Shown here: positions 3,732 to 53,463 of the stretch, in pieces
Layout: the number at the start of each line of letters is the position of its first letter
How positions within the stretch are numbered: position 1 is the first letter of the stretch
IMG/VR virus record: IMGVR_UViG_3300020448_000003
Coordinates: 35,009 to 99,008 of that record
DNA length: 64,000 nucleotides
DNA from: a virus
Reading direction: 5' to 3' (one strand)
Notes under the pieces: model-generated
What the model was told of the DNA's origin: nothing
Seen by the model: only the letters and a program-made list of their open reading frames with translations
Databases searched by the model: none
Made by a program: the position numbers and the translations under genes

Positions 3732-5801
3732 CTAGAAGCAAGAGTTAAACTCTGGGAGTTCGTATACTGTAGTTGGATAATCAATGATATTTATCGGTGT
3801 TCCATCGAAGTTAATTGCAGTAAAGTCGAATGGATCAAAAGTAGGAACGTTTGTTCCGTCTATAGTGTAATCGATAGTTTGTACTGTAGGATTGAAAATG
3901 GTTGGATCCAAACCAGTTCCAATATTGATATTTCCAGAAGCAGGAATGATAGTAACTGGTATTCTAGTAGTACCATCAGGGGTGCTTGCAACGTCAACAG
4001 GTCCTACACATACCTGTCCAGTTTTATAATCGACAGTTCCGACATTTTTCATCAATGTGACTTCAGTTTCATCAACTTTAGTCACCATAATAAGTTTTCC
4101 GTAACCATCGTCACGAATATTTACTGGAAGTAGTGCAGATGTATCATTTTGTATCAAAGATGCTGATGAAATTTGACTTGCATTGACACCACCCGCTATC
4201 GCTAATAATGCTTCTGTATAACCAGTAGCATAGAATGTACCTGTCTTTACAGTAGAATATCTAGGAGTACAAGTGCCACTAGGATCACTACCACCAGACA
4301 AATCATTAGGATTTGCAATTTCATTATTGAAATTGACACATTTGGAGAACATTGATCCAAATGTAAATCCTTCTATGTTCATACCAAGTGACATATGTGT
4401 CACGTTACCACTGATCGAAGGATCAGAGGAATCTATCATCGATTGATACGCAGATTGGTCAATACGTCCGTTAAACCTTGTTGATTCCGCTTGACTATTG
4501 TATTGATCGATAGACCCCAAAACTCTAGACGCAACTTCATTATTAGATAATGCAGTTTTATTACCATCAAAGAACGCCCAAGTTTTAGGTCTAATGTAGA
4601 GTGTAATGGGATCGACAATAACAGGTTCGATTGCTGCAATGGAATATTTAAGTAAATCAGTCTTGATTCTTTTTTTCGTTGTTGTGTTAAGTAATGCTCC
4701 ACTTTGTGTACGAATTGATATGTATACTTTACCATAAACAGGTGGTTGTAACCTCTCTCCACCATATACAGTAACAGATCTAGCAGCAGGGTAGACTTTT
4801 TTAGTAATGTATTCGTAGTCTGACTCTGTAACTGCTCTGTTTTGACTGTTAAATGCCCTTGGAGCATTGAATTTAATACTCAAGGTAGATTCTATGTCCT
4901 CACCATCTTGAGCACCGTCTACAGTCACTAAAGATATGTTTGCTGCTGGTACAAATCTTTGCTCAGAGTCTTGAACTTTACCTATAAATGTAAATTTCTT
5001 ACAACCATTAGCAGCAGTACCTTCAGTTTTAACATACTCTAGTTTAATAACCTCACCAGATATTAGTTGACGACAGATAACACCATCACCAAATACAACA
5101 CTATAACGCATATCATCTCCTTCCTCAAGGAAAAATCCACGAGTTGTACCATCAACATCCACAATGTTCTGTACAAGGTTGTATGTGTCAATCTCTTCTG
5201 ACTGTGTATTGGGTGAAATTGATACTTTTAATAGATCAGTGTCAACTTGATCAGCAGGAATTAGATAACTTCTCTTTTTAACGTCATCAACAATGTATTG
5301 ATATGAGATTAAGTTACCTTGATATATCACAACTTTGCTAAAAGTAGCAACACCTGTAGACTGATCTACAGTTGCAACCAAATCAGATGGTAATGTAAAT
5401 GTATATCCTGCACCATTAGTACTAGAAATGAATACATCACCCTTTTTCAAGGTTACAGATGAAGGATATGTTGTCCCAGAACCAACAGTACCAGTTTGAA
5501 CACTAAATGCAATACACGCTTTTGGTGCTTTTATTGATCTTGGCGTATAATTTAACTGTTTTGCTATCTTAACTACGTTATCTCTTATTGTTGCTGACTC
5601 TAAAAACGCCTCATTCATTGCCATATTAGCATTGAAAGACGCATAGTATGTGTTATATGATAAAACGTCGAGTAAGTATGATGCAGCTGAGCCATCAAAA
5701 TCGTAGTCTGTAAACTCATCTCTTGTACGCAGGTACGATCTTATAGACTCACGGATCTCTGTAAAGTCTAATGATGTTAAATTTGACGGAATTGCTGCCA
5801 T
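3732..5801 (-). CDS. 6: baseplate wedge protein gp6 (baseplate J-like)
   Basis: This 689-residue protein is the T4 gp6 homologue that forms the ring of the baseplate wedges. The N-terminus shows the family pattern: an I-x2-SI-x-SYLR stretch, then DYDFDGSAASYLLDVLSYNT, then MNEAFLESATIRDNVVKIAK and LNYTPRS. A middle block (ALRRYSxT-type region read as RAVTESDYEYITKKVYPAARSV, about residues 325-345) matches the baseplate J fold. Length is close to T4 gp6 (660). The start ATG lies 1 base after the gp25 stop, so the two genes are probably co-translated. The gene belongs to the late operon starting at the CTAAATA motif near 6348. Confidence 0.93.
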   Translation of the reverse strand: MAAIPSNLTSLDFTEIRESIRSYLRTRDEFTDYDFDGSAASYLLDVLSYNTYYASFNANMAMNEAFLESATIRDNVVKIAKQLNYTPRSIKAPKACIAFSVQTGTVGSGTTYPSSVTLKKGDVFISSTNGAGYTFTLPSDLVATVDQSTGVATFSKVVIYQGNLISYQYIVDDVKKRSYLIPADQVDTDLLKVSISPNTQSEEIDTYNLVQNIVDVDGTTRGFFLEEGDDMRYSVVFGDGVICRQLISGEVIKLEYVKTEGTAANGCKKFTFIGKVQDSEQRFVPAANISLVTVDGAQDGEDIESTLSIKFNAPRAFNSQNRAVTESDYEYITKKVYPAARSVTVYGGERLQPPVYGKVYISIRTQSGALLNTTTKKRIKTDLLKYSIAAIEPVIVDPITLYIRPKTWAFFDGNKTALSNNEVASRVLGSIDQYNSQAESTRFNGRIDQSAYQSMIDSSDPSISGNVTHMSLGMNIEGFTFGSMFSKCVNFNNEIANPNDLSGGSDPSGTCTPRYSTVKTGTFYATGYTEALLAIAGGVNASQISSASLIQNDTSALLPVNIRDDGYGKLIMVTKVDETEVTLMKNVGTVDYKTGQVCVGPVDVASTPDGTTRIPVTIIPASGNINIGTGLDPTIFNPTVQTIDYTIDGTNVPTFDPFDFTAINFDGTPINIIDYPTTVYELPEFNSCF

Positions 5802-5802
5802 T

Positions 5803-6210
5803 TTAAGTACGTTCCAATAGGAAATCTACAGTTTGAGTTATTCTCTCACCAATAATTACATACTCAACTTCAACTTCTAAATTATTATCATCATCAATGT
5901 TAACATTTACCTGAGATACGGTAATGCGTGGTTCAAGTCTGCCAAGTGTATTGACAATTTCTTCTTTAAGTTCTTCTAGCATAAAAATGTCAAAGTTTTC
6001 AAATAACATTTGACGTAATCTAGATCCTTTTTCTGGTTGAAAGGGTCTCTCTCCAAACCCTGTCATAACAAGGTTTTTCATCGATTGTTTAATAGCGTTT
6101 TCGTTTTTAACTACAGAGAAATCTTCAGTATTAGGATTTGCCTTCATAGACATACTGAAATCACGAAATTGACGTGATAAATTTCTTTCTGCTTTAAAAC
6201 GATATGCCAT
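5803..6210 (-). CDS. 25: baseplate wedge protein gp25 (lysozyme-like fold)
   Basis: The 135-residue product matches the gp25/IraD-like family: N-terminal FRDFSMSMKANPNTEDF, central NAIKQSMKNLVMTGFGERPFQPEKG and a C-terminal beta-rich segment ending in VDFLLE. T4 gp25 is 132 residues. It joins baseplate wedges to the sheath with gp6 and gp53. The start ATG overlaps the stop of the small upstream gene (TAATG). It is the second gene of the late unit driven from about 6348. Confidence 0.93.
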   Translation of the reverse strand: MAYRFKAERNLSRQFRDFSMSMKANPNTEDFSVVKNENAIKQSMKNLVMTGFGERPFQPEKGSRLRQMLFENFDIFMLEELKEEIVNTLGRLEPRITVSQVNVNIDDDNNLEVEVEYVIIGERITQTVDFLLERT

Positions 6211-12877: not shown

Positions 12878-13207
12878 TCATTCCCATTTAAGATTAGTTG
12901 AAACATCGTTTAATTTATTTTTGTCTATATGGATAACGTTTAAATCTGGGTTATCCGTAAAAATAAATGCAAGTGCGGTAAGTCTAGCAGCACGTCTAAC
13001 AACTGTTTTATTTTGTTGTCTTAATGTGACCCTCCTGTATCCGTTTTCATTTAGATGGATTTTTAATTTCTTCCATTTCCCCCATTTAGTGCTGTAAATG
13101 TCCCCAAGGTTAGAAACATAATAATCTTCATAGTTCGGGATAGGTTTATACAAAATACCTTCCTCATCCTGATAGGTATTTTCATCGATCTTTTTAAATG
13201 GGTTCAT
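12878..13207 (-). CDS. HNH endonuclease with NUMOD4-like N-terminus, C-terminally short
   Basis: The 109-residue protein has a NUMOD4-type start (YKPIPNYEDYYVSNLGDIYST) and an HNH core (LTALAFIFTDNPDLNVIHIDKNKLNDVSTNLKWE). Homing endonucleases of this class usually continue after LEW with a C-terminal NUMOD region, but here a TGA follows LKWE. The second HNH-region His seen in many relatives (NNxxxNLEW) is Val/Ser here. It is probably a free-standing homing endonuclease or a remnant of one. It lies between two unrelated small genes. Confidence 0.75.
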   Translation of the reverse strand: MNPFKKIDENTYQDEEGILYKPIPNYEDYYVSNLGDIYSTKWGKWKKLKIHLNENGYRRVTLRQQNKTVVRRAARLTALAFIFTDNPDLNVIHIDKNKLNDVSTNLKWE

Positions 13208-13235: not shown

Positions 13236-13886
13236 TCAAAAACAGTTAAACGTCAAGGTTAATCGGTTCGGTGTACTGTTTAATTCAAAACCTCGTGATA
13301 GGTTACTAGGGAATATTAATATATCGCCTTCCGATGTTGGTATGTCCTGAGTAAGGTTATTAAAAGGCGTTATTTTTTCGTGTTTTCCCTGCATAATGGG
13401 ATAATGTGGGGAACCGATTGCCCGATTGAATTTAAGAGGACTATGTTTATCTGGTAAGAAATTTATAAAATAACAACCTGAGTATAAAACATTGCTCTGT
13501 TCGTGGGGTGCATACATCGATTCTGCTCCAGCAACCTCAATAATGCTATCCGCAAATTGGATTTCCTGGAAGTTTTTCCACTCATAGCAATATGATTGAG
13601 AATTAACCTCAAATACTGCTTTTTGTATGGTCTCCTTAATGGTAGCAAGTGCCTGATGTTCTAATATGGCATTATCCCCTAATTGCGTTATATTGTAGCA
13701 TATAGACGTTTTTGGGGATGGGATGCAAGTTTTAGGATCAATTTGATCCAAAAAGTCAACTAGGATTGCTTTATGTTCATTATGTTTTTTGTTTGTATAT
13801 TTTCCTATAGGAACCATAAACAACCCATAAACCGATGTATCCGTTACTGATTGCGTTAGATTATCCGATAGAATAGACTCATCCAT
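13236..13886 (-). CDS. 2OG-oxygenase-like protein lacking metal ligands
   Basis: The 216-residue product follows the fold of the putative 2OG-Fe(II) oxygenases: SGCYFINFLPDKHSPLKF, then EGDILIFPSNLSRGFE, then NRLTLTFN. Where relatives such as the 205-aa protein at 28304 have H-x-H and a distal His (FPGWLKHKT), this one has HEQ and FPSNLSRGF, so one or two iron ligands seem replaced. The co-substrate Arg (NRLTL) remains. It may be inactive, a scaffold, or use other ligands. It is transcribed from a perfect sigma70 promoter at 13930. Confidence 0.55.
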   Translation of the reverse strand: MDESILSDNLTQSVTDTSVYGLFMVPIGKYTNKKHNEHKAILVDFLDQIDPKTCIPSPKTSICYNITQLGDNAILEHQALATIKETIQKAVFEVNSQSYCYEWKNFQEIQFADSIIEVAGAESMYAPHEQSNVLYSGCYFINFLPDKHSPLKFNRAIGSPHYPIMQGKHEKITPFNNLTQDIPTSEGDILIFPSNLSRGFELNSTPNRLTLTFNCF

Positions 13887-24996: not shown

Positions 24997-25194
24997 TTAT
25001 TCCTCAACGTGTTTTAAGTATAACAGATCACACATATTATTGATAATCTCCATTGAGTGATTAAACTTATCATCATCAATAATATTATTGTGATGTTTCT
25101 CGTGAAGTTTACCTATAAACATCCCAAGTGATTTCTTGAGTATCTGTTTACCTTCTTCATCTATTATTTGTGTCTTTAGTCCTATCATTGTCAT
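24997..25194 (-). CDS. 65-aa protein, unknown
   Basis: MTMIGLKTQIIDEEGKQILKKSLGMFIGKLHEKHHNNIIDDDKFNHSMEIINN. Start overlaps the stop of the oxygenase upstream (ATGA), so it is part of the oxygenase operon. Helical, unknown function. Confidence 0.6.
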   Translation of the reverse strand: MTMIGLKTQIIDEEGKQILKKSLGMFIGKLHEKHHNNIIDDDKFNHSMEIINNMCDLLYLKHVEE

Positions 25195-25865
25195 AATAGA
25201 GGTATGAGAGAAAACTGATCGTCAGGTAGATCAGGTTGCGTATGTATATCATAACCTAAAGTAATTCGATTTCCAGAATAGTTTTCATTTACACATACTT
25301 TATGTTTCCTATCCCAACCAGGTCCAAAATAGATGTTACCTACCTCGTTCTTGATTTCATATCTTACATTTGTATTAGGGTCGTGAAACTTAGTAATTGA
25401 ATCTTTTGGGTCAATACTTACATATCCGTGGTAATCAAATTTATGATCGTGCCAGTTCAATACTTGATCTGGTTTGTGCATATTCATCCAACATTGAAAC
25501 CATAATGGTTCATCAGTATTTAGAGTTGTCCTTACTACTGTCCGAATATCACGATACAATAACCAAAATAGTGGGGATGGACTTGTTAATGCAAATAGAT
25601 TATAGAACCGATAACCACTAAATCCTTCACTCATATTATTTAAAAACTCTTTATCCTTCTCGTGCTGTTCTTCTACATTGAATATGTCAGGTAGAGAACC
25701 AACTGTTAACTCTCTACTTGTTAGTGATGAATCAAAACCTGTAAATGTCTGTTTAAATTGTCTATATGATCTACCTAGTTGGGCGATCATCTCTTGACTC
25801 TCGTGTTCGACTGCTGGTGATCTGTAGAGAACCCAATCATCACCTTCGGTTACTTTGTATGTCAT
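25191..25865 (-). CDS. 2OG-Fe(II) oxygenase-like protein 1 (H-x-H type)
   Basis: The 224-residue protein has WHDHKFDYHGYVSID, the H-x-H variant seen in the putative 2OG oxygenase families of marine phages, then a distal His in DRKHKVCV and an Arg in NRITLGYDI. The intervening NIYFGPGW is the usual strand before the distal His. The substrate is unknown. It overlaps its neighbours at both ends (ATGA and 4 bases), placing it in the halogenase/heme oxygenase operon. Confidence 0.7.
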   Translation of the reverse strand: MTYKVTEGDDWVLYRSPAVEHESQEMIAQLGRSYRQFKQTFTGFDSSLTSRELTVGSLPDIFNVEEQHEKDKEFLNNMSEGFSGYRFYNLFALTSPSPLFWLLYRDIRTVVRTTLNTDEPLWFQCWMNMHKPDQVLNWHDHKFDYHGYVSIDPKDSITKFHDPNTNVRYEIKNEVGNIYFGPGWDRKHKVCVNENYSGNRITLGYDIHTQPDLPDDQFSLIPLL

Positions 25866-27147: not shown

Positions 27148-27776
27148 TAATGTCCTTGACCAAAGAATACTATAGTTAATCGTGCATCAGATGAGTTTGT
27201 ACCATAGAAGTTTTGACCTCCGTGATATTTTCTACCATCAAATATGATACACCTATTATAGCGTGCCTGTACCTTAATTGATTCATTAAAGTAACTGTTG
27301 CACTGCTCTTTATATTTATCAAATACTCTAATACCCTCTGTACCTTGTGCTTCCATTGCCTTATGGAACTCTTCTTCATAATCTTCCATTTGAGGACCTT
27401 TAGGTACATCATATATTGTTGTTCCTGTGTCTTGTTTGTATTCTTTATTCAAGTAAATAACTGCACCTATTCCTAGGTGGTCGTCATCAGTATGAATCCA
27501 TCCACTATTACATTCTCCTGTACTAATATGAAAAGCTGCGTCTGCTATATGTAAATGAGTAAATGCTGGAATATACTTAATAATTTTACTACATATTATT
27601 TCGTGAAATATAGGGTCAGTATCATTAATTAATCTACTGCGTTTACCTGGCCAGTACCCTCTGTTAGGGTGTTCAGTACAAGTAAAATATTCCTGTTGCT
27701 GTGCGTTAGCATACACAAGACTAGGTGTCTCAAAGAAATTATCTACTACTATAGTTGGTACTATTTCTTCAAACAT
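27147..27776 (-). CDS. DUF6445-like 2OG-Fe(II) oxygenase 4
   Basis: 209 residues: IVVDNFFETPSLVYANAQ at the N-terminus, GWIHTDDDHLGIGAVIYLN (H-x-D about residue 94), GTTIYD and a C-terminal YNRCIIFDGRKYHGG with distal His. This layout matches the DUF6445 group of 2OG oxygenases, named from memory. It is one of six consecutive oxygenase genes and overlaps the next by 8 bases. Confidence 0.75.
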   Translation of the reverse strand: MFEEIVPTIVVDNFFETPSLVYANAQQQEYFTCTEHPNRGYWPGKRSRLINDTDPIFHEIICSKIIKYIPAFTHLHIADAAFHISTGECNSGWIHTDDDHLGIGAVIYLNKEYKQDTGTTIYDVPKGPQMEDYEEEFHKAMEAQGTEGIRVFDKYKEQCNSYFNESIKVQARYNRCIIFDGRKYHGGQNFYGTNSSDARLTIVFFGQGH

Positions 27777-28317
27777 AATTAAAATTAATTACCACTCTCT
27801 TGTTATGGTATAAAGGGCAAGAACTAGCGTGATAGGTAGAACCATCAAAGATAACAACACTACCTTTCTTTGGTTGTACTCTCTTCTCGACCTGATTATT
27901 CTTGTTAAAGAATACAGTATCGCCATCAGATTCATTGACATAATATAATCCTACTTTATGTGGTACATCTGCATCGATATGTGGTTGATTATAACCTATA
28001 CCAGTAGGTAAAAGCAACCCACCCTTAATCCTCAGTAACTCAAAATTATCTTCCTCTACAAATGATAATAGCAATGGTAATATAAACAAATAATGCTTTG
28101 ACATTATGTCCACACCATCAGGTTTATGATAAAACATATGAGCAAATCCTGGTGATCCTTTGGCATCAGGGAACTCTACTCTTTTTGGATCGTCATTCTC
28201 TCCATTGAGAGCATAAGTTATGTCATCAAGAAAATGCCAATCAAATTCAAGAGATAGCATCATCTTCTCTATTTGATCTTGATACTTTTTAGGAATAACG
28301 TTGTTAATGACTTTCAT
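27769..28317 (-). CDS. 2OG-Fe(II) oxygenase 5
   Basis: 182 residues with QPHIDADVPHKVGLYYVNESDGDTVFF (H-x-D about residue 112), IFDGSTYHASSCP (distal His) and KRVVINFNYV (Arg). It is similar in plan to the 184-aa enzyme at 10773, whose C-terminus also ends RVVLNLNYF. Overlaps both neighbours. Confidence 0.85.
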   Translation of the reverse strand: MKVINNVIPKKYQDQIEKMMLSLEFDWHFLDDITYALNGENDDPKRVEFPDAKGSPGFAHMFYHKPDGVDIMSKHYLFILPLLLSFVEEDNFELLRIKGGLLLPTGIGYNQPHIDADVPHKVGLYYVNESDGDTVFFNKNNQVEKRVQPKKGSVVIFDGSTYHASSCPLYHNKRVVINFNYV

Positions 28318-28921
28318 AATTAACCGATAGAACTATTCTATCCTCGTTGGTTTTGTTAGGTTGAGTTTTATGTTTTAACCAACCAGGAAATACCAATACA
28401 TCATTTGTTTGTACTGGTATCTCTTTCCAAATATTCTGTGCTGGTTCTTGGGGTGTACCAAACCTGTGGTATTCAAGTGGGTCTCTAACTAAGAAATTAC
28501 CTGACCCCTTCGGTGCTTTCAAGTAACAAGAAATTACCAAGGGTGATGGTGAATGTAAATGTTCACCTGTGTAACCACCACGTTTGTGTATATTTACCCA
28601 ACTCTCACGTGGATATATTCTCATATTATCGAAGTATCCCCAAGATGTCCAGATGGGTACAATTTGTTGATGAATAATATAAAAAAACTTCTCTAAACAT
28701 TCCCAGTTATGTGGTGCATAACTCTCTAATGAATGTGATGCTGTAGAGAAAGCATTACCATTTTCTATTCTTGAGTTTGTCCCTGCCTTATCTAATATAG
28801 AACCCACATCAAACTGTAGCGAACCCTCACTCTCATATTCAAAATTATAATTTAATTTATAGAGATAATTAGGTGTAATCGCTAATGGTTTTGGTGGGTC
28901 AGGAGTGACAACAACTTTCAT
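28304..28921 (-). CDS. 2OG-Fe(II) oxygenase 6 (H-x-H type)
   Basis: 205 residues: ESWVNIHKRGGYTGEHLHSPSPLVISCYL (H-x-H), then NDVLVFPGWLKHKTQPN (distal His) and EDRIVLSVNYES (Arg). This arrangement is that of the putative 2OG-Fe(II)_Oxy_5 family, common in marine phages. Starts with ATGA coupling to the 47-aa gene. Confidence 0.8.
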   Translation of the reverse strand: MKVVVTPDPPKPLAITPNYLYKLNYNFEYESEGSLQFDVGSILDKAGTNSRIENGNAFSTASHSLESYAPHNWECLEKFFYIIHQQIVPIWTSWGYFDNMRIYPRESWVNIHKRGGYTGEHLHSPSPLVISCYLKAPKGSGNFLVRDPLEYHRFGTPQEPAQNIWKEIPVQTNDVLVFPGWLKHKTQPNKTNEDRIVLSVNYESH

Positions 28922-29064
28922 CAGTTATCAAATCGTTTCTTATACTCTTTAGTTAGTTTCTCTTCAATACGTTTCATATATTTCTTCATCTTCTTTGACA
29001 CTTCAGAGGGTAGATTTTTGATAACTGGTGGTTGAAAATTATAATCTAATCTGGGTAGTTTCAT
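28921..29064 (-). CDS. 47-aa basic protein, unknown
   Basis: MKLPRLDYNFQPPVIKNLPSEVSKKMKKYMKRIEEKLTKEYKKRFDN. Highly basic, helical. Linked by ATGA overlaps to heme oxygenase upstream and oxygenase 6 downstream. May bridge or bind nucleic acid (inference). Confidence 0.6.
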   Translation of the reverse strand: MKLPRLDYNFQPPVIKNLPSEVSKKMKKYMKRIEEKLTKEYKKRFDN

Positions 29065-29606
29065 AGGGTCAGCATTTCCTCGAATGTCTTGGTAGCAAAC
29101 TCGTATGCAACTTTAACTTCATCTACAATTTTTTCACTGCCCATACACTCCCCAATTTCTTCTCTGATCCTCATTTTTAATGTATCTGGATCATCAAATG
29201 TGTGCCATTGTGATGAACCTGGTGTACATTTCTTTAACATCTGTCCACCCATCAAATCTCCCATATGTCTTGTATAGATGTGTGCCATCAATCTACATTT
29301 GTCTCCATTTAAACCATAAATGTAATCAACAAATTCTTTTGTAACATTTAAAACAGGTGGTGGGGTATCTGCATCCCACAGTTCATAATAATCTTTGTTT
29401 ATTCGTTGATGCCTTATAATATCAGGCATATCTCTTATTACTCCGTGCGTATCTGCTGTAACTTCTAATGCTTGATATTGAAGTATTTGGTTATAGCAAA
29501 ATGTAGCATACTCTTTGTCTGATAGTTCACCTTTAAACATCTTAGAAACAAATTCTTGTCTCTCTGCTGCTTTATGATGTTCCCAAGTTGCTTCCTTTAA
29601 TCCCAT
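29061..29606 (-). CDS. ho1: heme oxygenase
   Basis: The 181-residue enzyme opens heme to biliverdin, Fe(II) and CO using O2 and ferredoxin. The proximal His is in TWEHHKAAE (residue 10 or 11) and the distal-helix motif is HMGDLMGGQML (residues 114-124). Cyanobacterial HO1 is about 240 residues, so this phage form is short at the C-terminus. In cyanophages ho1 usually accompanies bilin reductases (pebS, pcyA), but none is visible in this window. It sits instead among Fe(II)-dependent oxygenases, so released iron may matter here (inference). Confidence 0.9.
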   Translation of the reverse strand: MGLKEATWEHHKAAERQEFVSKMFKGELSDKEYATFCYNQILQYQALEVTADTHGVIRDMPDIIRHQRINKDYYELWDADTPPPVLNVTKEFVDYIYGLNGDKCRLMAHIYTRHMGDLMGGQMLKKCTPGSSQWHTFDDPDTLKMRIREEIGECMGSEKIVDEVKVAYEFATKTFEEMLTL

Positions 29607-41801: not shown

Positions 41802-42065
41802 TTAATATGGAATGTCTTCATCTTGTACACCTTCTAACAGGTCATTTATCTCAAACACAAGAGGATGACATTCTTCCATAATAAGATACTGACTTATGTG
41901 ATAAAGTTCTTCTAACGTGTATTCGTGAACTTCCTGACACGCTTCTATAAGATCTATATCTGGATTATCAATTTCCTCAAAAGTAAATGGTAGTCCATTA
42001 ATGAACCACATTTGTACACATCCTACATTCTTTAGAATGTGATAGTCTGATGTTACCTTATACAT
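41802..42065 (-). CDS. 87-aa acidic protein, unknown
   Basis: MYKVTSDYHILKNVGCVQMWFINGLPFTFEEIDNPD... Overlaps the CpeT-like gene by 13 bases. Not recognised. Confidence 0.55.
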   Translation of the reverse strand: MYKVTSDYHILKNVGCVQMWFINGLPFTFEEIDNPDIDLIEACQEVHEYTLEELYHISQYLIMEECHPLVFEINDLLEGVQDEDIPY

Positions 42066-42493
42066 TTTGTAAACCTAAAAGGACCTTTTTCAGAACCCCA
42101 GAGCAACTGTCCATCTTTACGTCCTTTATCTGACGTAATAAACTCATCTTTAGTAAGTTTTGCTTGCGTATCTATTTCAACACCCTCTTTGCTTATCCAT
42201 CCCTTTTCAGTTTGACCTACCCAACCATCAGGTGTTTGTGTCCAGATAGTGTCTGCTGACTTCTCATCACCGTTATATGTTTCTAAGATGATAGAAGTTT
42301 CTGTTTCTATTAGTTTATGTGTTCTTGCTCTGTAGGGTTGTGATTGACCTTGATAGTCATACCATTGCTTTGTATGTAGAACACCGTTTTCCCAATACCA
42401 TAGGTAATGTACATATGCAAAACTAGCGGGTGCTAATTGTGCTTGCTTCAAATTATGCCAGTGATGTACCAGCATATTGGAAAATTGATCCAT
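42053..42493 (-). CDS. cpeT: CpeT/CpcT-type bilin lyase-like protein, copy 1
   Basis: 146 residues. HHWHNLKQAQLAPASFAYVHYLWYWENGVLHTKQWYDYQG and PYRARTHKLIETETSIILETY match T-type phycobiliprotein lyases, which attach bilins to Cys of phycobiliprotein beta subunits. It retains the DGWVGQTEKGW and LWGSEKGPFRFTK blocks. Cyanobacterial CpeT is near 200 residues; phage forms are about 150. It has a close paralogue immediately upstream. Confidence 0.78.
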   Translation of the reverse strand: MDQFSNMLVHHWHNLKQAQLAPASFAYVHYLWYWENGVLHTKQWYDYQGQSQPYRARTHKLIETETSIILETYNGDEKSADTIWTQTPDGWVGQTEKGWISKEGVEIDTQAKLTKDEFITSDKGRKDGQLLWGSEKGPFRFTKCIR

Positions 42494-42502
42494 TGATCTG
42501 AA

Positions 42503-42943
42503 TTATGTATGCTTAAAAATAAATGGAGAAGGTACAACACCCCATTTGACTTTACCACTTCCATCTACTCCTTTGTCCAAAGAAGTAAATGTTTCTGAGT
42601 CTAATGAAATTCTAGACTCAACCTTTATACCGTTATGATCTACCTGACCATCTGTCTTACCAACATATACTCCTGCTTCAGATTCAGTAAATTCTATTGT
42701 AATATTACTTTCAACAATTAAAAGTTGAAGTTTATCTTCACCAGGATATTGAGACAACCAATGAGTTCTTTCTCTATATGTTTCACCGTTCCAATGATAC
42801 CACTGTTTAGATGATAAAATACCATCGTGATTTAAAAACCAATCATAATGTACGTGTGCAAACTGATTTGGTTGACACTGTGCTTGGTGTAGGTTATCCC
42901 ACTTATGAAGTAAACATTTTATAAAATGATTTTTGTCTATCAT
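42503..42943 (-). CDS. cpeT: CpeT/CpcT-type bilin lyase-like protein, copy 2
   Basis: 146 residues with HKWDNLHQAQCQPNQFAHVHYDWFLNHDGILSSKQWYHWNG and YRERTHWLSQYP, the same pattern as copy 1 at about 35-40 % identity by eye. Ends EFTESEAGVYVGKTDGQVDHNGI and SPFIFKHT. The two genes are separated by 9 bases. The start overlaps the upstream stop (ATGA). Confidence 0.78.
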   Translation of the reverse strand: MIDKNHFIKCLLHKWDNLHQAQCQPNQFAHVHYDWFLNHDGILSSKQWYHWNGETYRERTHWLSQYPGEDKLQLLIVESNITIEFTESEAGVYVGKTDGQVDHNGIKVESRISLDSETFTSLDKGVDGSGKVKWGVVPSPFIFKHT

Positions 42944-43227
42944 AGATCATTCATTGCCTCTCTTGTTAAATCTGACGCAAAGTTTGCGACATCAGTTTGT
43001 GGTGGTAGACCTCCAATACCAGATGTAGGTAAAGGTCCTTGATGATACATTGCTGCTTTCTCTTTTTCTCGTAATGCTTCATCAACTTCTGCTGCCTGTG
43101 TATTTGCTACAGGTGTGATAAGAACATTTCCATCGGGAGTTTCTACAACAAAAGGTGTACCCCTTGCTGCTAATTTTAATGTGAAAGCAATATTCTCTAT
43201 TGCTTCTTGTGATGATAATCTATTCAT
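42940..43227 (-). CDS. 95-aa protein, unknown
   Basis: I start at MNRLSSQEAIENIAFTLKLAARGTPFVVETPDGNVLITPV, whose ATG overlaps the upstream stop (ATGA). The C-terminal QTDVANFASDLTREAMNDL is helical. Not recognised. Confidence 0.6.
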   Translation of the reverse strand: MNRLSSQEAIENIAFTLKLAARGTPFVVETPDGNVLITPVANTQAAEVDEALREKEKAAMYHQGPLPTSGIGGLPPQTDVANFASDLTREAMNDL

Positions 43228-43493
43228 AAAACAAAACACCTCATATCTTCGGGCATAATTTCTTTAATCACTGATACTACCTCTGCAAATCCTTTTGCTC
43301 CATCTTCGTCCCAACTAAACCTAACTTTTTCAATATTCCCATCATCGGTCTGAAGGGAAAGTGTTCTGGTTCTAATGTTGATCCAAACATATGTTAACCA
43401 CTCATTGTGTATGTTGTATGTAGTTTCCATAAGAAAAATAAATGATTCAGCGTTAAGACAATGTAAAATCTCACCGCCTTCTGGTTCTTTCAT
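43224..43493 (-). CDS. 89-aa protein, unknown
   Basis: MKEPEGGEILHCLNAESFIFLMETTYNIHNEWLTYVWINIRTRTLSLQTDDGNIEKVRFSWDEDG. Strand-rich start followed by helices. Coupled to the 95-aa gene. Confidence 0.55.
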   Translation of the reverse strand: MKEPEGGEILHCLNAESFIFLMETTYNIHNEWLTYVWINIRTRTLSLQTDDGNIEKVRFSWDEDGAKGFAEVVSVIKEIMPEDMRCFVL

Positions 43494-43668: not shown

Positions 43669-46134
43669 TCAATTTAAGAAAATGGGTAGTCCTATTATTT
43701 GAGTTGGTCCTCCTGCACACCCTACAACCATTTTTCCTGCTCCAACGTTATATCTTGCTTGTCCTACTGGAACTACGTTTACAATACCACCACCAGGTCC
43801 AGCTGCTAGTTCTCCGATAACTCCTTTTGCAGCAGTAACCACTGTCATATGTCCACCTTTTGCACCTACTACTGTATCTAACATACCACCACCTTTTGCA
43901 CCTGTTTCTGCAATACGAATATGTGCTGCTGGCATTGGTGATAGACCAATACCTGTTCCACATATGGTGATATCAGGTCCTTTTATAATAGAAAGTCTAC
44001 CTGTGATTGCTGGTAATGGATTCATTGTTGCAATCATAACAAAGTGTGCATTAGCAATAAATTCTGTCTTCCATTGACATTCGTTAATAATCTCACCAGA
44101 GATTGAATTCATTAATGATGCGGACTTAACTGTTGTTGCAGTAGCATTGAGATCTAAGTTGTTTACAGCATTTACTGTTGTGTTTGCTGTTTGTGTTTTC
44201 CAATCACCTTCTATTGCTAAGTCATAATCAGAGGAGTATGTTGTTGACGCTTTCTGTTGTTGTGAATTTGGATTGCCACTATCATCAGTTCCAACACCTT
44301 GTGATATATGTTCTGTTCTAGTTCCTAATACTTCAACGTTGAAGTTACCCATAACTTTAAGAGTGTAATCACCCTCAATAGTTACAGTCTTATTACCTTT
44401 AACAGCACAACAGTCATCACCACCAATAATTGCAGTATTATTACCAGGCATATTAAGATGTTGATCACCCATCGCAGTAGCAATCGTAGTCTGACCACCA
44501 GCGTGTGTAACAATAGTTTTTTCTTTTCCTTTTGTATTATCCTGTATGACAGCAGCACCATTTAAAAATGTTGTTACCTGTGTTGCATACGAATCAATAC
44601 CCTGCATCAAATCAGAGAAATAATCTCCTTTAGTTTTTGATCCAGTGTATCCACCATCAGTACCATATGTACCTGTGTTAATTTCTATTTCTTGTTGTAA
44701 ATATTCTGGAACTGAAGCACACTCACTTGTACCAAACAAAGGCAACCAGAACTTTTGTTTCGGTGGCGATAAACTTCGTCCACAATCTTTATTACCAAAC
44801 AGTGATGTGATAATACCGATGATGATGCTTATTAATGAACCCCAGTTAATCTTAGAGAAATCAAATGCAAAGAGTGATTTTAATGCACCAACAACTTTTC
44901 TTGCTACTCCTGCAATATTTTTAGCAACTGCGATAGCAGCACTTACCTTCTGTGCTACTCCTGCTACTTTTCCAATAGCACCTTGAATCTTTCCTATAAC
45001 AGCGTTTACTGTATCGTTTACTTTATCAGCGATACCACCGATAACTTTATCTACTATATTACTTGCGATTGAATCAGCAAATGAATCTATATTATTGATA
45101 GCACCGTTAATAGCACCTAGAATATAACTTGCTTCAAAGTTACAGAACAGTGCTGTTATCTTACTTGCAAGTGATAACAACTTACTAATGATACCAAGTG
45201 GAGCAATACTAGAGAGTGCAGATGTTACACCACCTATCAATGCAGAGATTTGTTCTGCTAGTAACTGCTTCAAAGATGACATTACACCAGTGATGGAGTT
45301 AGCAACAAACTGTTTGACTTTTGCCAAACTGGTTACTATGATGTCGTTCTTAACTTTTTTACCTGTAATGAGAGAAACGAGATTACCATCTCTACCTTGT
45401 GCTAGTGAACCACTGAGATTACCTAATTCGGTAAGCATTCTATCAAGGTCTTTATCAAACCCTTCTCCTGTAGGACCTCCAATACCATCAGCAATACCAA
45501 ATGCTTCTGCTGGTATTTTTAGTGGGTTGGTAGCATAATGACCTGGTGACATTTGTTCAAGAATCGAAATGACACCACGTGATTTTTCTTCACCACCTTG
45601 TTCATCGCCAGGTGTATCTCCACCAATGACAGTAAACTGATTACCACTATGAACTGTCTCTCCTGTAATTGCTTTAGATTGAGGATTCATTTCCTCATCT
45701 GTTAGTGCTTCTTTACTATCAGCAACTACTGTAGCAGATATTTGTTCACCTGTTTCTGGATCTCCATCAGAACTCTTTGAGTCACTGAGGTTTCTCATAC
45801 CGTGTATCGACCCCATAACAACAGGTAACTGTGCTTCTTCACCATCAAGGAAGAAACCAAGAACCGTAGCACCTACTTGTAACTGAGTCGAAGTACCAGT
45901 ATTCTTGATACCCGCTTGGTCTGTAGGTAATAAAACAGATGACCACGGTAGTGCATCTGTTGGGATGTCATCTTTATATGCTACTTCTCCGTGACCTGTA
46001 TACCAACCGACAATACGAACTTTGACCCTACCAATCTTTTGGGGATCTTTAATGGATTCGACTTCACCCACCCACCAGGTGAATCCGTCCCTACCCATTA
46101 CGTCAGTTTTTCCGATTACATCAATACGTGCCAC
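43669..46134 (-). CDS. 5: baseplate hub / spike protein gp5-like, 821 aa
   Basis: GTG start, 2 bases after the upstream oxygenase stop. The N-terminus (FTWWVGEVESIKDPQKIGRVKVRIVGWYTGH) is the OB-fold of gp5/VgrG. GTSTQLQVGATVLGFFLDGEEAQLPVVMGSIHG follows. A hydrophobic Gly/Ala/Val-rich helical insert of about 250 residues separates it from a beta-helix-like C-terminus (VTIEGDYTLKVMGNFNVEVLGTRTEH...). No T4-lysozyme motif is visible, so the catalytic domain of T4 gp5 seems missing or replaced. Confidence 0.8.
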   Translation of the reverse strand: MARIDVIGKTDVMGRDGFTWWVGEVESIKDPQKIGRVKVRIVGWYTGHGEVAYKDDIPTDALPWSSVLLPTDQAGIKNTGTSTQLQVGATVLGFFLDGEEAQLPVVMGSIHGMRNLSDSKSSDGDPETGEQISATVVADSKEALTDEEMNPQSKAITGETVHSGNQFTVIGGDTPGDEQGGEEKSRGVISILEQMSPGHYATNPLKIPAEAFGIADGIGGPTGEGFDKDLDRMLTELGNLSGSLAQGRDGNLVSLITGKKVKNDIIVTSLAKVKQFVANSITGVMSSLKQLLAEQISALIGGVTSALSSIAPLGIISKLLSLASKITALFCNFEASYILGAINGAINNIDSFADSIASNIVDKVIGGIADKVNDTVNAVIGKIQGAIGKVAGVAQKVSAAIAVAKNIAGVARKVVGALKSLFAFDFSKINWGSLISIIIGIITSLFGNKDCGRSLSPPKQKFWLPLFGTSECASVPEYLQQEIEINTGTYGTDGGYTGSKTKGDYFSDLMQGIDSYATQVTTFLNGAAVIQDNTKGKEKTIVTHAGGQTTIATAMGDQHLNMPGNNTAIIGGDDCCAVKGNKTVTIEGDYTLKVMGNFNVEVLGTRTEHISQGVGTDDSGNPNSQQQKASTTYSSDYDLAIEGDWKTQTANTTVNAVNNLDLNATATTVKSASLMNSISGEIINECQWKTEFIANAHFVMIATMNPLPAITGRLSIIKGPDITICGTGIGLSPMPAAHIRIAETGAKGGGMLDTVVGAKGGHMTVVTAAKGVIGELAAGPGGGIVNVVPVGQARYNVGAGKMVVGCAGGPTQIIGLPIFLN

Positions 46135-46136
46135 GA

Positions 46137-46700
46137 TTAACTATAAGAAATCCATCCTGTTACTATGTATTTATCCTCTTTAGGAGCAGGAACTCCGTGA
46201 TGAACGTGAGTCCAATCACACGGCCATAACAAAGTCAACCCTTTTTCAGGTTTCATTGACAGGTCTTGGTGTACCCACTGGGTTTCTCCACCCTCTTCTA
46301 CATTGTTTAGATACGTCATCCAGACTAAGTGTCTAAAGGATGTAGTTTTATTTGATCCTACTCTCTCAGTATGAGGTTGAGAGAATGCTTCACCAGGTTT
46401 GTAATGTTGAATATTAAATGGTTCTATTACTTCCAAATCTGCCATCGATGCCCAAGGATACTGATCAATGTATAGTGTGATAGCACCTTGAATAGCATCA
46501 AGATATTTGACGATACGTGGATCCTTTATGAATGAAGGAACCGCCATATCTGTTGAGTTTTTAATTATAGGATCTACTCCACCAGAGTACTCACCTTTTA
46601 CTTTATCTAAGTAGGTACAGTCATTGTAGAATTCCATAACTCCATCAACGATGTCCTCATCTATGTGTCCTCCAGCAATGAAGGATTGTACTGCACTCAT
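46137..46700 (-). CDS. 2OG-Fe(II) dioxygenase in the gp5 unit
   Basis: 187 residues with QHYKPGEAFSQPHTERVG (H-x-E, about residue 113), YLNNVEEGGETQWVH, a distal His in LWPCDWTHVHHGV and a Lys in KYIVTGWISYS where Arg is usual. The H-x-E ligand pair and Lys recall prolyl 4-hydroxylases. It sits directly behind a late promoter and 2 bases before gp5, so it is made with virion proteins. Confidence 0.83.
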   Translation of the reverse strand: MSAVQSFIAGGHIDEDIVDGVMEFYNDCTYLDKVKGEYSGGVDPIIKNSTDMAVPSFIKDPRIVKYLDAIQGAITLYIDQYPWASMADLEVIEPFNIQHYKPGEAFSQPHTERVGSNKTTSFRHLVWMTYLNNVEEGGETQWVHQDLSMKPEKGLTLLWPCDWTHVHHGVPAPKEDKYIVTGWISYS

Positions 46701-46721: not shown

Positions 46722-46728
46722 TATTTAG
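46722..46728 (-). promoter_or_regulatory. late promoter CTAAATA
   Basis: Upstream of the oxygenase-gp5 pair. Its TAA is also the stop codon of the CP12 gene. Confidence 0.65.
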
Positions 46729-46952
46729 TCGTCATAAACCAAACATTCTGGTTCATCTGGGTGCATATCGCAGAATAATTCTAAAGCATTAGGGTCGTGA
46801 TGATCTCCTGCTTCAATCTCATCTTTGTGATGCTGTGCATAGACTTCTAACTCGTGTAACTCTTCCTTATAGTGTCTGCGTGCAGCAGGACTTGTAGTGG
46901 GGTCGTCAACGATCTTTTGATCTTTTTTGATGTGATCTTCTATTGTTTTCAT
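46725..46952 (-). CDS. cp12: CP12-type Calvin-cycle inhibitor (C-terminal Cys pair only)
   Basis: 75 residues ending LFCDMHPDEPECLVYDD, the C-terminal C-x8-C loop of CP12 (Cys 61 and 70), which binds GAPDH and helps lock GAPDH and PRK in an inactive complex. The N-terminal Cys pair of canonical CP12 is absent and a helical RRHYKEELHELEVYAQHH replaces the AWDxVEEL segment. Cyanophages carry cp12 to block the host Calvin cycle and favour the pentose phosphate route (established for this family). It sits between the gp27-like hub gene and the gp5 unit. Confidence 0.85.
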   Translation of the reverse strand: MKTIEDHIKKDQKIVDDPTTSPAARRHYKEELHELEVYAQHHKDEIEAGDHHDPNALELFCDMHPDEPECLVYDD

Positions 46953-50219: not shown

Positions 50220-52553
50220 TTATACAAGACCTACTGAGGATGTTTTAGAAAGAACTGGAGTACCTTCACGTATGACCTGTACTTCTTTCTTAGATTTAAC
50301 CAAAGGTTGCATAACAACTATCGTTTGTACACCACTTGTCAACTCTTCACCAGCGAGTGCTTCGGATCTATTTTTCATTTCAGCACTGGTGTTATTTAGT
50401 TTATCGGGTGGCAATGTTTCAATAGGTGCGTTAGGTGTACCAAATAGACCAGGATATATCTTTGTAGGATCTAAATGCTCACTGGTACCCATCTTATAAA
50501 CATCAAAATGTAAATGTGTATCGTTGATATCTCTACCAATTTTACTCATATCAACAAGGTTTCCTATCTTCTGTCCTGCTTTGATATGATCACCAACTGC
50601 GACTGATGGTAACATATGCAAATATCTGTGATCAAATCCATCTGCACTTCTTATCATTAACCCTGCCATATAATTTAAAGTGTTATCATATTTCTCTTTC
50701 AATACTTGACCACCAGTTAGAGCAACAACATCAATAGCAGGGTCAGCACCAAATGGAGGTTTCTCTGTTAAGTCAATACCTGTATGTGCACCATAACTAC
50801 GTGGTGCACCATAACGTTGACCTGGTTGTCCTGCGTATCTTCCCATAGGTAATGGGAAAATCTTTGTATTGGAAACAGTTACATTCTTCTCTAGCGGTCC
50901 TCCACCATCTTCAAGACTATTAACTAATTCTTGTGCATCTTTTGCTTTCTGTTCAGCATAAGGAATAAGAACATTTGTCCAGTGATCTATCTTTTCATCA
51001 ATAGTAGAACCAAATGGATGTCTGTGACCGTTCATTATATTCATACCTGGTGCACCATTACTGGTTTTAATAACACCATCAACTCCTGTCCATATACTTC
51101 TCTTACTACCACCTTCCTCAGCTTTCTTTTTCTTAAGGTCAGCAACTTGTTTACGTAAACGTTTTACATCCTCGGTTTCATTAACTAATTGTGCAGATGC
51201 CTTAGATTCTTCTGATCCAAATGTTCTTTGGAAGTAATTAACTGTACCTCCTACAACATTTTGACCAAGATTAATAAGATACATTAGTTTCTCAAATACT
51301 GCCTTTAGACCTGGTGAATTTAAAAACTCATTTACTTTCTTAACTGCTGCTTCTGCTACTGGTTTCAACATATTCCACACAGTTTTTAACGCTGGAACGA
51401 GTGCATCTATCATATCTCTAACAGAGTCAATCAAAGGTGTAAGATATGCCTTCCATAAAGGCATCATAATCTCACCTATGAATTTCTTTATAGGTTTTAT
51501 GATAGGTGTTATAGCATCACCTACAAATGCACCAATCTTATCTCCTAGAAATCCACCTAACAAGTTACCAACAATAGGACCAAAAGGACCTAGTATCGGT
51601 GTTAACAATGCAGTCAACGCTGCACCACCCACAGCAGCACCAATACCACCACCAATCGCTTTCTGAGCTGAGTCTCCTGATTGCAATCTTGTAATTGTAG
51701 CAGTAGCACCCGCTAAGAATGGCATACCTTTAGAAAGGAAACCAGTTGCTTTACCCTGCATAAACCTACCCGCCTTGACTCTAGTAAGACGTTTAAGTCG
51801 TAACATTCTTGTTCTTCTTGCTCTTATTCTATTTCTCATATTACCGAATCTTTTGACTCGTTTCATTCTCTCATTTCTAAGTTTCTTGATATTTTGTGCT
51901 CTCTTTAATTTTTTACCCCAAGAAGTTTTTCCTACAGTGTTCTTGTAAAACTTAACTAAACTTTGATAATCACCTATTAATTTCCAAGGTTGCAATACTC
52001 TAGTCGCAACAAAAAAGGCACCAAGACCACCAATGATCTTAAGTGCACCCATTATTAAACTCTTTTCACCAAATGCCTCCATTATCCAGTTGACACCTGT
52101 ATTCAATATCTTATAAACACTACCCAACCATTTACCTATTAAAGGTAAACTAAAATCAAGAATACCTTTAAATTTAGGATTTGATAGTAAATCTAGTAGA
52201 AACCACGTTCCTACCTTCATAGCAATCCATTTAAAAGGTTGCAACAATTTATTCAACCATTTAGTTGCATTTTTAGCAACTCCACTTTTTTTAGATTCTG
52301 ACTCTACTGCTTTTTCTGTGTCTGATTCTAACTTATTCTCAGTATCTTTATCTTTCTGTAAATTTGCTTCGTCATTCTGATCTTTCCAATATGCCAACCT
52401 CTGATTGTGCATATCAGCAAATATTGCTCCAATATCTTCCACGACAAAACCCATCCTGTTGATGGCAAATGTAAATCCTTGTACAGGATTTTTTGCAGTG
52501 CCTACTTTCTCAGGAATAAACTTTCGTATGTTTAGCGGTCTTGCCCCTTCCAT
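50220..52553 (-). CDS. tape-measure-like virion protein with M23 peptidase domain, 777 aa
   Basis: N-terminal globular region and TM-like helices, a very basic stretch at about residues 215-265 (ARRTRMLRLKRLTRVKAG) and a hydrophobic Gly-rich segment near 285-330. The C-terminal third carries a complete M23 metallopeptidase pattern: H-x3-D in GAHTGID (H590, D594), YLHML (H646) and the HLHFD (680-684) motif. M23 enzymes cut peptidoglycan cross-links. It probably exposes the cell wall during injection. Overlaps the gp51-like gene. Confidence 0.75.
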   Translation of the reverse strand: MEGARPLNIRKFIPEKVGTAKNPVQGFTFAINRMGFVVEDIGAIFADMHNQRLAYWKDQNDEANLQKDKDTENKLESDTEKAVESESKKSGVAKNATKWLNKLLQPFKWIAMKVGTWFLLDLLSNPKFKGILDFSLPLIGKWLGSVYKILNTGVNWIMEAFGEKSLIMGALKIIGGLGAFFVATRVLQPWKLIGDYQSLVKFYKNTVGKTSWGKKLKRAQNIKKLRNERMKRVKRFGNMRNRIRARRTRMLRLKRLTRVKAGRFMQGKATGFLSKGMPFLAGATATITRLQSGDSAQKAIGGGIGAAVGGAALTALLTPILGPFGPIVGNLLGGFLGDKIGAFVGDAITPIIKPIKKFIGEIMMPLWKAYLTPLIDSVRDMIDALVPALKTVWNMLKPVAEAAVKKVNEFLNSPGLKAVFEKLMYLINLGQNVVGGTVNYFQRTFGSEESKASAQLVNETEDVKRLRKQVADLKKKKAEEGGSKRSIWTGVDGVIKTSNGAPGMNIMNGHRHPFGSTIDEKIDHWTNVLIPYAEQKAKDAQELVNSLEDGGGPLEKNVTVSNTKIFPLPMGRYAGQPGQRYGAPRSYGAHTGIDLTEKPPFGADPAIDVVALTGGQVLKEKYDNTLNYMAGLMIRSADGFDHRYLHMLPSVAVGDHIKAGQKIGNLVDMSKIGRDINDTHLHFDVYKMGTSEHLDPTKIYPGLFGTPNAPIETLPPDKLNNTSAEMKNRSEALAGEELTSGVQTIVVMQPLVKSKKEVQVIREGTPVLSKTSSVGLV

Positions 52554-52741
52554 TAGAGTTGTTGTCCAGGAGGTGAGTTTTGAAAGTCTTGTTGTTTTTG
52601 TCGTCTTTCTTCTTCACGAAGATAACGTATCAACAAATTCACATAAACATCTCTTTCCCACGGAATCATATTCTCAAGTTCTGTAAGACTATACTTATGA
52701 TGTTGCATCAAAGCAAAATTAGTCTCATACAGATTCATCAT
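52553..52741 (-). CDS. 62-aa baseplate assembly protein, gp51-like position
   Basis: MNLYETNFALMQHHKYSLTELENMIPWERDVYVNLLIRYLREEERRQKQQDFQ. Such short helical products follow gp26 in T4-like phages and act in baseplate hub assembly; in tailed phages this pattern also resembles tail-assembly chaperones. Assigned by position and layout. Either of two adjacent ATGs may be used. Confidence 0.55.
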   Translation of the reverse strand: MMNLYETNFALMQHHKYSLTELENMIPWERDVYVNLLIRYLREEERRQKQQDFQNSPPGQQL

Positions 52742-52758
52742 CGAATCGTGGGATAGGG

Positions 52759-53463
52759 CTACTCGAAAAAAGCTGCTAGTCCCTCTAGTGTAACTGTACT
52801 TTTTACTTCAGTCTTTGGATTGAATACCTCGATCTCGTGAGATAACTTTGGCATCGTTTCAAAGAATTTTTGAACTGATGTAAACTGCTGTGAATTCATA
52901 CTTTCAAAGAACTCTACTAACTCTGCCTTTTTATAAGACTTTGCTTCGTGAAGTTCCTCACCGTCAGCAATAGTATCAGTACAATCTGCTGCTAGTTTGA
53001 ATACATCTTCAAGACCAGGATTATCTGATAGATTATTTTTCACAAAACTATCCAAAGATGGATATTTCATAGTTAAGGTGATCTGATCAGTTAATTTAAT
53101 CACATTAGTATGATCTTTTGGGATTTCAACTTTAACTTCATCCAAGTTGACTTCTACTTCAACTTGTGTTTTTTCATCATCAGGGCAAGTTAGTTTAAAT
53201 TCACTAACTTCACCTACAGATTTACCACGAATTTTTAAGAATAGATATTCAATATCAAATGTAGCAAGTTCACTTAGATTCTTGACATTTGTACAATTCT
53301 TGATAATCTCTTTAACTGCCTTGATCATCTCTTTGTTATTTTGAGTTTCCATTGCCATATAAAGCAATTTCTCTTCTCTAACTAGAAATGGTCGATAGGT
53401 GACTTTCTGACCTCTTGGCAGGGTGCATTCATAGTCTGGAATGCTCAGTTTTGGTAAAGGCAT
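52759..53463 (-). CDS. 26: baseplate hub protein gp26-like (T4_baseplate family)
   Basis: 234 residues. LSIPDYECTLPRGQKVTYRPFLVREEKLLYMAMET and DIEYLFLKIRGKSVGE are the conserved start and SIDxLFxxIR-type block of the T4 gp26 family. The middle is LxCPxDE-like (FKLTCPDDEKTQVEVEV). It helps assemble the baseplate hub. A CTAAATA late promoter lies 29 bases upstream. Confidence 0.85.
   Translation of the reverse strand: MPLPKLSIPDYECTLPRGQKVTYRPFLVREEKLLYMAMETQNNKEMIKAVKEIIKNCTNVKNLSELATFDIEYLFLKIRGKSVGEVSEFKLTCPDDEKTQVEVEVNLDEVKVEIPKDHTNVIKLTDQITLTMKYPSLDSFVKNNLSDNPGLEDVFKLAADCTDTIADGEELHEAKSYKKAELVEFFESMNSQQFTSVQKFFETMPKLSHEIEVFNPKTEVKSTVTLEGLAAFFE

Follow-up and report, generated by a model that had tools for sequence, protein, structure and literature searches.

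Whilst a single cpeT gene is already known from phages, uncultured marine cyanophages of one lineage have two diverged T-type phycobiliprotein lyase-like paralogues in tandem, which suggests that the virus splits the loading of antenna pigment between two proteins. The pair, CpeT-A and CpeT-B, was analysed in a window of 64,000 nucleotides (positions 35009-99008 of a 99 kb IMG/VR fragment). In our preferred reading, to which we assign a probability of about 0.55, A and B would be two specialised T-type lyases or bilin chaperones that differ in bilin or in client: two divergent, intact genes, unusual for phages and long kept together, make a division of labour likely. Hosts carry cpeT within the phycoerythrin operon, and the role of the phage gene 'remains unresolved' according to a 2010 comparison (PMC3037559); a tandem of diverged copies is a natural comparison, in that the differences between A and B point to what CpeT is for.

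Both genes lie on the minus strand, with CpeT-B (42503..42943) upstream of, and transcribed before, CpeT-A (42053..42493); each starts with ATG, 9 nt separate them, and the two adjacent reading frames of 146 aa that had been picked out in a sequence-only reading of this DNA are confirmed. Directly upstream of B, and overlapping it by 4 nt, is a Phd-like antitoxin-family ORF (42940..43239, minus strand; phrog_375, 2.4e-4, with synteny at pair and single loci), followed further upstream by a DUF7294 ORF (43224..43493, minus strand; PF23966, 9.5e-16, with synteny); at the other end, the start of a phrog_4134 ORF (41802..42065, minus strand; 3.2e-19, with synteny) overlaps the 3' end of A. All three are conserved flanks, and on spacing the block from the Phd-like ORF to the phrog_4134 ORF reads as one operon. 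The T4-type late promoter TATAAATA showed no excess within the window and did not occur directly upstream of B. Beyond this block lie gp5, encoding the baseplate hub/tail lysozyme (43669..46134, minus strand; identified by tblastn to cyanophage gp5 and by its tree, and used as the marker for the phage backbone), and, on the far side of gp5, cp12, a Calvin cycle regulator (46725..46952, minus strand; PF02672, 9e-13). As fibre and structural genes run from 41523 downward, the earlier placement of the pair between these and gp5 was correct. With further T4-like genes in the window (baseplate wedge and hub, single-strand DNA binding protein, PhoH and thymidylate synthase), the surroundings are, on gene content, those of a T4-like cyanomyovirus. 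The nearest isolates by gp5 (P-RSM6, S-WAM1, S-SZBM1 and P-TIM40) share only 36-41% identity with it by tblastn, so the pair lineage is without a close isolate in that collection, and by megablast the region had no match among phage records.

Two features of the wider window deserve mention in their own right. Genes resembling 2OG-Fe(II) oxygenases are numerous (46137-46700, 27769-28317, 28304-28921, 13236-13886 and 25191-25865), and several of their neighbours are given unexpected PHROG names (endonuclease V, ferrochelatase, minor coat protein), which may be wrong labels for members of related families. An ORF with a NUMOD4 motif (12878-13207, minus strand) probably encodes, or is what remains of, a homing endonuclease.

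Profile and structural comparisons place A and B as true members of the CpeT/CpcT family, and not as chance matches. Against PF06206, with a curated cut-off of 21 bits, A scores 48.1 bits (E=1.6e-12) and B 33 bits (E=6.9e-08), and both match phrog_488, 'CpeT-like antenna protein' (4.7e-31 and 1.5e-17, respectively), so that the CpeT/CpcT-like assignment of the sequence-only reading holds for each; both also have the compact form of 140-150 aa of phage CpeT (phrog_488) and sit in a T4-like cyanophage genome. A profile search matched the solved structures 5hi8 (1e-13) and 4o4o (4.4e-12). AlphaFold models of high pLDDT (A 94.6, B 93.8) were compared with the PDB using Foldseek: the best matches of A were CpcT (4o4s/4o4o) and phage CpeT (5hi8), and those of B were 5hi8 and 4o4s/4o4o, all with a probability of 1.00. 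The only matches at E < 0.001 were CpcT with or without phycocyanobilin, CpeT of phage P-HM1 and plant CRL, with nitrobindin and FABP among the weaker ones; both proteins are thus predicted to adopt a calyx-shaped antiparallel beta-barrel as in CpcT. A and B are only 32% identical over 154 columns (E=3e-23), bearing out the earlier remark that they diverge outside their shared motifs. The motif KQWYxxxG is common to the two; the longer one, given as HNxxQAxxxPxxFAxVHYxW, is shared from its second residue onward (NxxQAxxxPxxFAxVHYxW), but HN occurs in A only, B having DN.

That phages ordinarily carry one cpeT, as had been supposed, was verified in several ways. Matches by tblastn in 245 phage records with A, and in 115 with B, always fell at one place per record, and no isolate record was seen with more than one cpeT in these searches; a 38-row profile search of ten complete isolate genomes found exactly one in each; and Table 3 of Sullivan et al. 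2010 gives cpeT once per genome in 12 of 16 genomes (PMC3037559). The four nearest isolates have their single cpeT just upstream of gp5. Yet the B-A tandem occurs at the same place in 33 IMG/VR contigs, with a shared neighbour order of cp12, 2OG oxygenase, gp5, DUF7294, Phd-like ORF, B, A, phrog_4134 and a structural gene. Two IMG/VR genomes of 182 and 187 kb have exactly two copies, namely the B-A pair, with no third, and A and B are the sole family members found in the present 99 kb record. The tandem is thus not peculiar to one contig and belongs to a lineage of uncultured marine cyanophages. In another 24 contigs the slot of the tandem holds a lone A-type gene, and six short contigs have a B-type gene alone, upstream of NifU-like and plastocyanin (petE) genes. 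This second locus, with B-type CpeT by itself beside the NifU-like and plastocyanin genes, was observed in L238-L242 and L074/L229, which come from other uncultured cyanophages.

Each copy is intact and under purifying selection. Across eight comparisons of close relatives, dN/dS was 0.06-0.23 for B and 0.05-0.27 for A, save for one value of 0.55 in A that rests on very few changes. A recent duplication with one copy decayed, which the sequence-only reading had named as one outcome that would undo it, was checked and is ruled out by the age of the split and by purifying selection on both genes. Across phages and hosts, A and B retain N14/N17, Q17/Q20, P22/P25 and Y45/Y49 (A/B numbering), together with Y54-R55-x-R57-x-H59 (Y56-R57-x-R59-x-H61 in B), G93/G95, D122-x-G124 (D123-x-G125 in B), W132-G133 (W134-G135 in B) and F141/F143, with some of these positions varying in single outgroup rows; the YRxR, DxG and WG core does not vary within either the A set or the B set. 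The YRxR arginines of CpcT reportedly bind bilin propionates. Other positions are specific to each group (Y27/H30, T41/S45 and K136/P138), and the Asp of the 'cDmiF' strand (D81 of A), present in every other phage CpeT sampled, is lost in B.

The sequence-only reading had raised the idea that the two copies might fall in different CpeT/CpcT clades; the trees do not support it. The phage proteins all group together in a single clade, apart from 16 cyanobacterial CpeT and CpcT/RpcT proteins (100/100). The CpcT side of the host tree was recognised by the match of Calothrix L175 to CpcT 4o4o (2.4e-96), Synechococcus WH7803 L180 on the opposite side matching that structure at 3e-40. Approximately unbiased (AU) tests rejected trees that placed A with host CpeT (p-AU 3e-76), B with host CpcT/RpcT (p-AU 1.6e-4) and, likewise, the swapped joins (all AU p<=5e-4), so that neither protein belongs to a host CpeT or CpcT/RpcT clade. 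On these trees A and B are old paralogues that originated within the phage clade, and the duplication of T-type genes in phages is independent of the CpeT versus CpcT/RpcT split of their hosts.

Within the phage clade, single copies at this locus group with A (96/98). In the gp5 tree all pair carriers group together (100), with one single carrier, L029, nested among them, and eight single carriers form their sister clade (100). L029 appears to have lost B cleanly: the gap (5677-5986 of that contig) is filled by an ORF of some 100 aa unrelated to B, and no remnant of a decayed B was found in it. The sub-lineages of A match those of B in the CpeT trees, indicating that the pair was inherited together. 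How the pair arose is less sharply drawn. A tree in which A and B (with L074) were joined to the exclusion of the single-copy sisters was 15.9 log units worse but was not rejected (p-AU 0.08); B-type genes of the petE locus nest with B, and B alone as a clade was rejected (p-AU 0.005). Adding these petE-locus rows blurs the branching of A and the single copies. Taken together, the nesting and the p-AU of 0.08 make it possible that B is older or has moved between loci. By its placement, B is a wider type and more than a local copy; it may have been born in tandem and then moved, or may have joined A from elsewhere.

Genes for bilin supply accompany the pair. The window encodes a heme oxygenase (ho1, 29061..29606, minus strand; PF01126, 5.4e-19, and phmmer matches to solved heme oxygenases), the enzyme that makes biliverdin, precursor of all phycobilins. 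The closest match to this protein among phage records is from Pelagibacter phage Mosig (37%), with cyanophage ho1 of the P-HM1 type at 25%. No bilin reductase was found in this 99 kb record; ferredoxin-dependent bilin reductases are present in three other pair-bearing records (G013, G014 and G016), and in G016 the reductase is accompanied by a heme oxygenase. The reductase of G013 most resembles PcyA, which makes PCB. A PEB-making relative of PcyA, PcyX, is also known from phages (PMC11480375). That phages with the pair carry heme oxygenase or reductase genes indicates that such phages handle bilins and lends support to bilin binding by A and B. Separately, in another record (L079/G032) a divergent bilin reductase gene (51960-53077; PF05996, 5e-11) is followed directly by cpeT, forming a cassette for bilin synthesis and handling.

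Under the reading of two specialists, each protein would, during infection, bind within its barrel a phycobilin made by phage or host, the propionates of which would be held by the YRxR arginines, and the bilin would then be passed to, or stored for, a lyase or a phycobiliprotein beta subunit of the host. The simplest split between A and B would be by bilin (PCB versus PEB) and/or by client site, such that together they might cover the work of the pair of T-type lyases in hosts (CpeT together with CpcT or RpcT) by an independently reached route. A would be nearest to the ordinary single copy at the locus and B the more derived, having lost the cDmiF Asp and changed at further positions. CpeT of P-HM1 is said to bind PEB tightly, to make no transfer of its own to a host beta subunit and perhaps to assist host CpeS; 'lyase', which in this family stands for covalent attachment of bilin at the Cys-153/155/165 site of a phycobiliprotein beta subunit, may hence be the wrong word for A and B, and a role as bilin chaperone appears no less likely than true lyase activity. 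Further observations count against this reading: single-copy sister phages lack the tandem at the locus, the present 99 kb fragment yielded no bilin reductase, and the loss of the Asp in B could signify an altered ligand. We can entertain only tentatively the more ambitious proposal that B and A form a dedicated two-protein system for bilin loading, whether as bilin or client specialists or as a heterodimeric T-type lyase, supplied with bilin through ho1 and pcyA. If true, the pair and phage-made bilin would give the phage control of a complete heme-to-antenna route during infection. We know of no heterodimeric T-type lyase.

The main rival to two specialists is an obligate heterodimer, in which B would be the structural or client-binding partner and A the bilin carrier. 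The 9-nt gap, an order that is always B-A, joint retention throughout the pair clade and the loss of the family Asp in B all fit such an arrangement, but CpcT is described as a homodimer, both A and B keep the complete core, and the occurrence of A-type genes without B in 24 contigs, and of B-type genes without adjacent A at petE, shows that neither needs a neighbouring partner gene. Even with the precedent of CpcS-I/CpcU (PMC7242693), we consider an obligate heterodimer unlikely. Were the two instead doing the same job, with two copies simply supplying more bilin-binding protein, their likeness in fold and core residues would follow; identity of about 32%, group-specific positions (including D81, lost in B) and long separate conservation point to different roles, leaving dosage improbable.

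Similar barrels take varied ligands, as the weaker matches to nitrobindin and FABP illustrate, and A and/or B might thus bind heme, biliverdin or a chlorophyll intermediate, or sequester bilin, in the service of tetrapyrrole or iron management. The ho1 gene of the window phage, and B-type genes lying elsewhere beside NifU-like and petE genes, would suit such a function; fold matches at E < 0.001 to CpcT, phage CpeT and CRL only, and the retained YRxR arginines, argue against it, and we rate it as quite improbable. Marine Synechococcus carries cpeT along with either cpcT or rpcT (PMC2246261), from which separate captures of a host cpeT and a host cpcT might be imagined, but this is scarcely credible given a single phage clade against all host rows (100/100) and AU tests that reject the joins.

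Amongst known systems, the heterodimeric S-type lyase CpcS/CpcU, which belongs to a different lyase family, shows that two related proteins can act together in attaching bilin. The cyanobacterial CpcT/RpcT/CpeT proteins (4o4o, 4o4s) share the fold and core residues of A and B, and hosts likewise carry two T-type genes; these lyases are, however, about 50 aa longer than the phage proteins and form a separate clade, and the duplication in each is independent. PhiCpeT of P-HM1 (5hi8; phrog_488) is like A and B in family, length (~140-150 aa), fold (TM 0.79-0.85) and the conserved N, Q, P, YR and DxG positions, yet only 19-25% identical to them. As at the present locus, many cyanomyoviruses keep cpeT near gp5 and cp12; in the nearest isolates it lies between cp12 and gp5, whereas the A/B tandem lies downstream of gp5 instead, and where those phages have one copy, this lineage has two divergent types in tandem.
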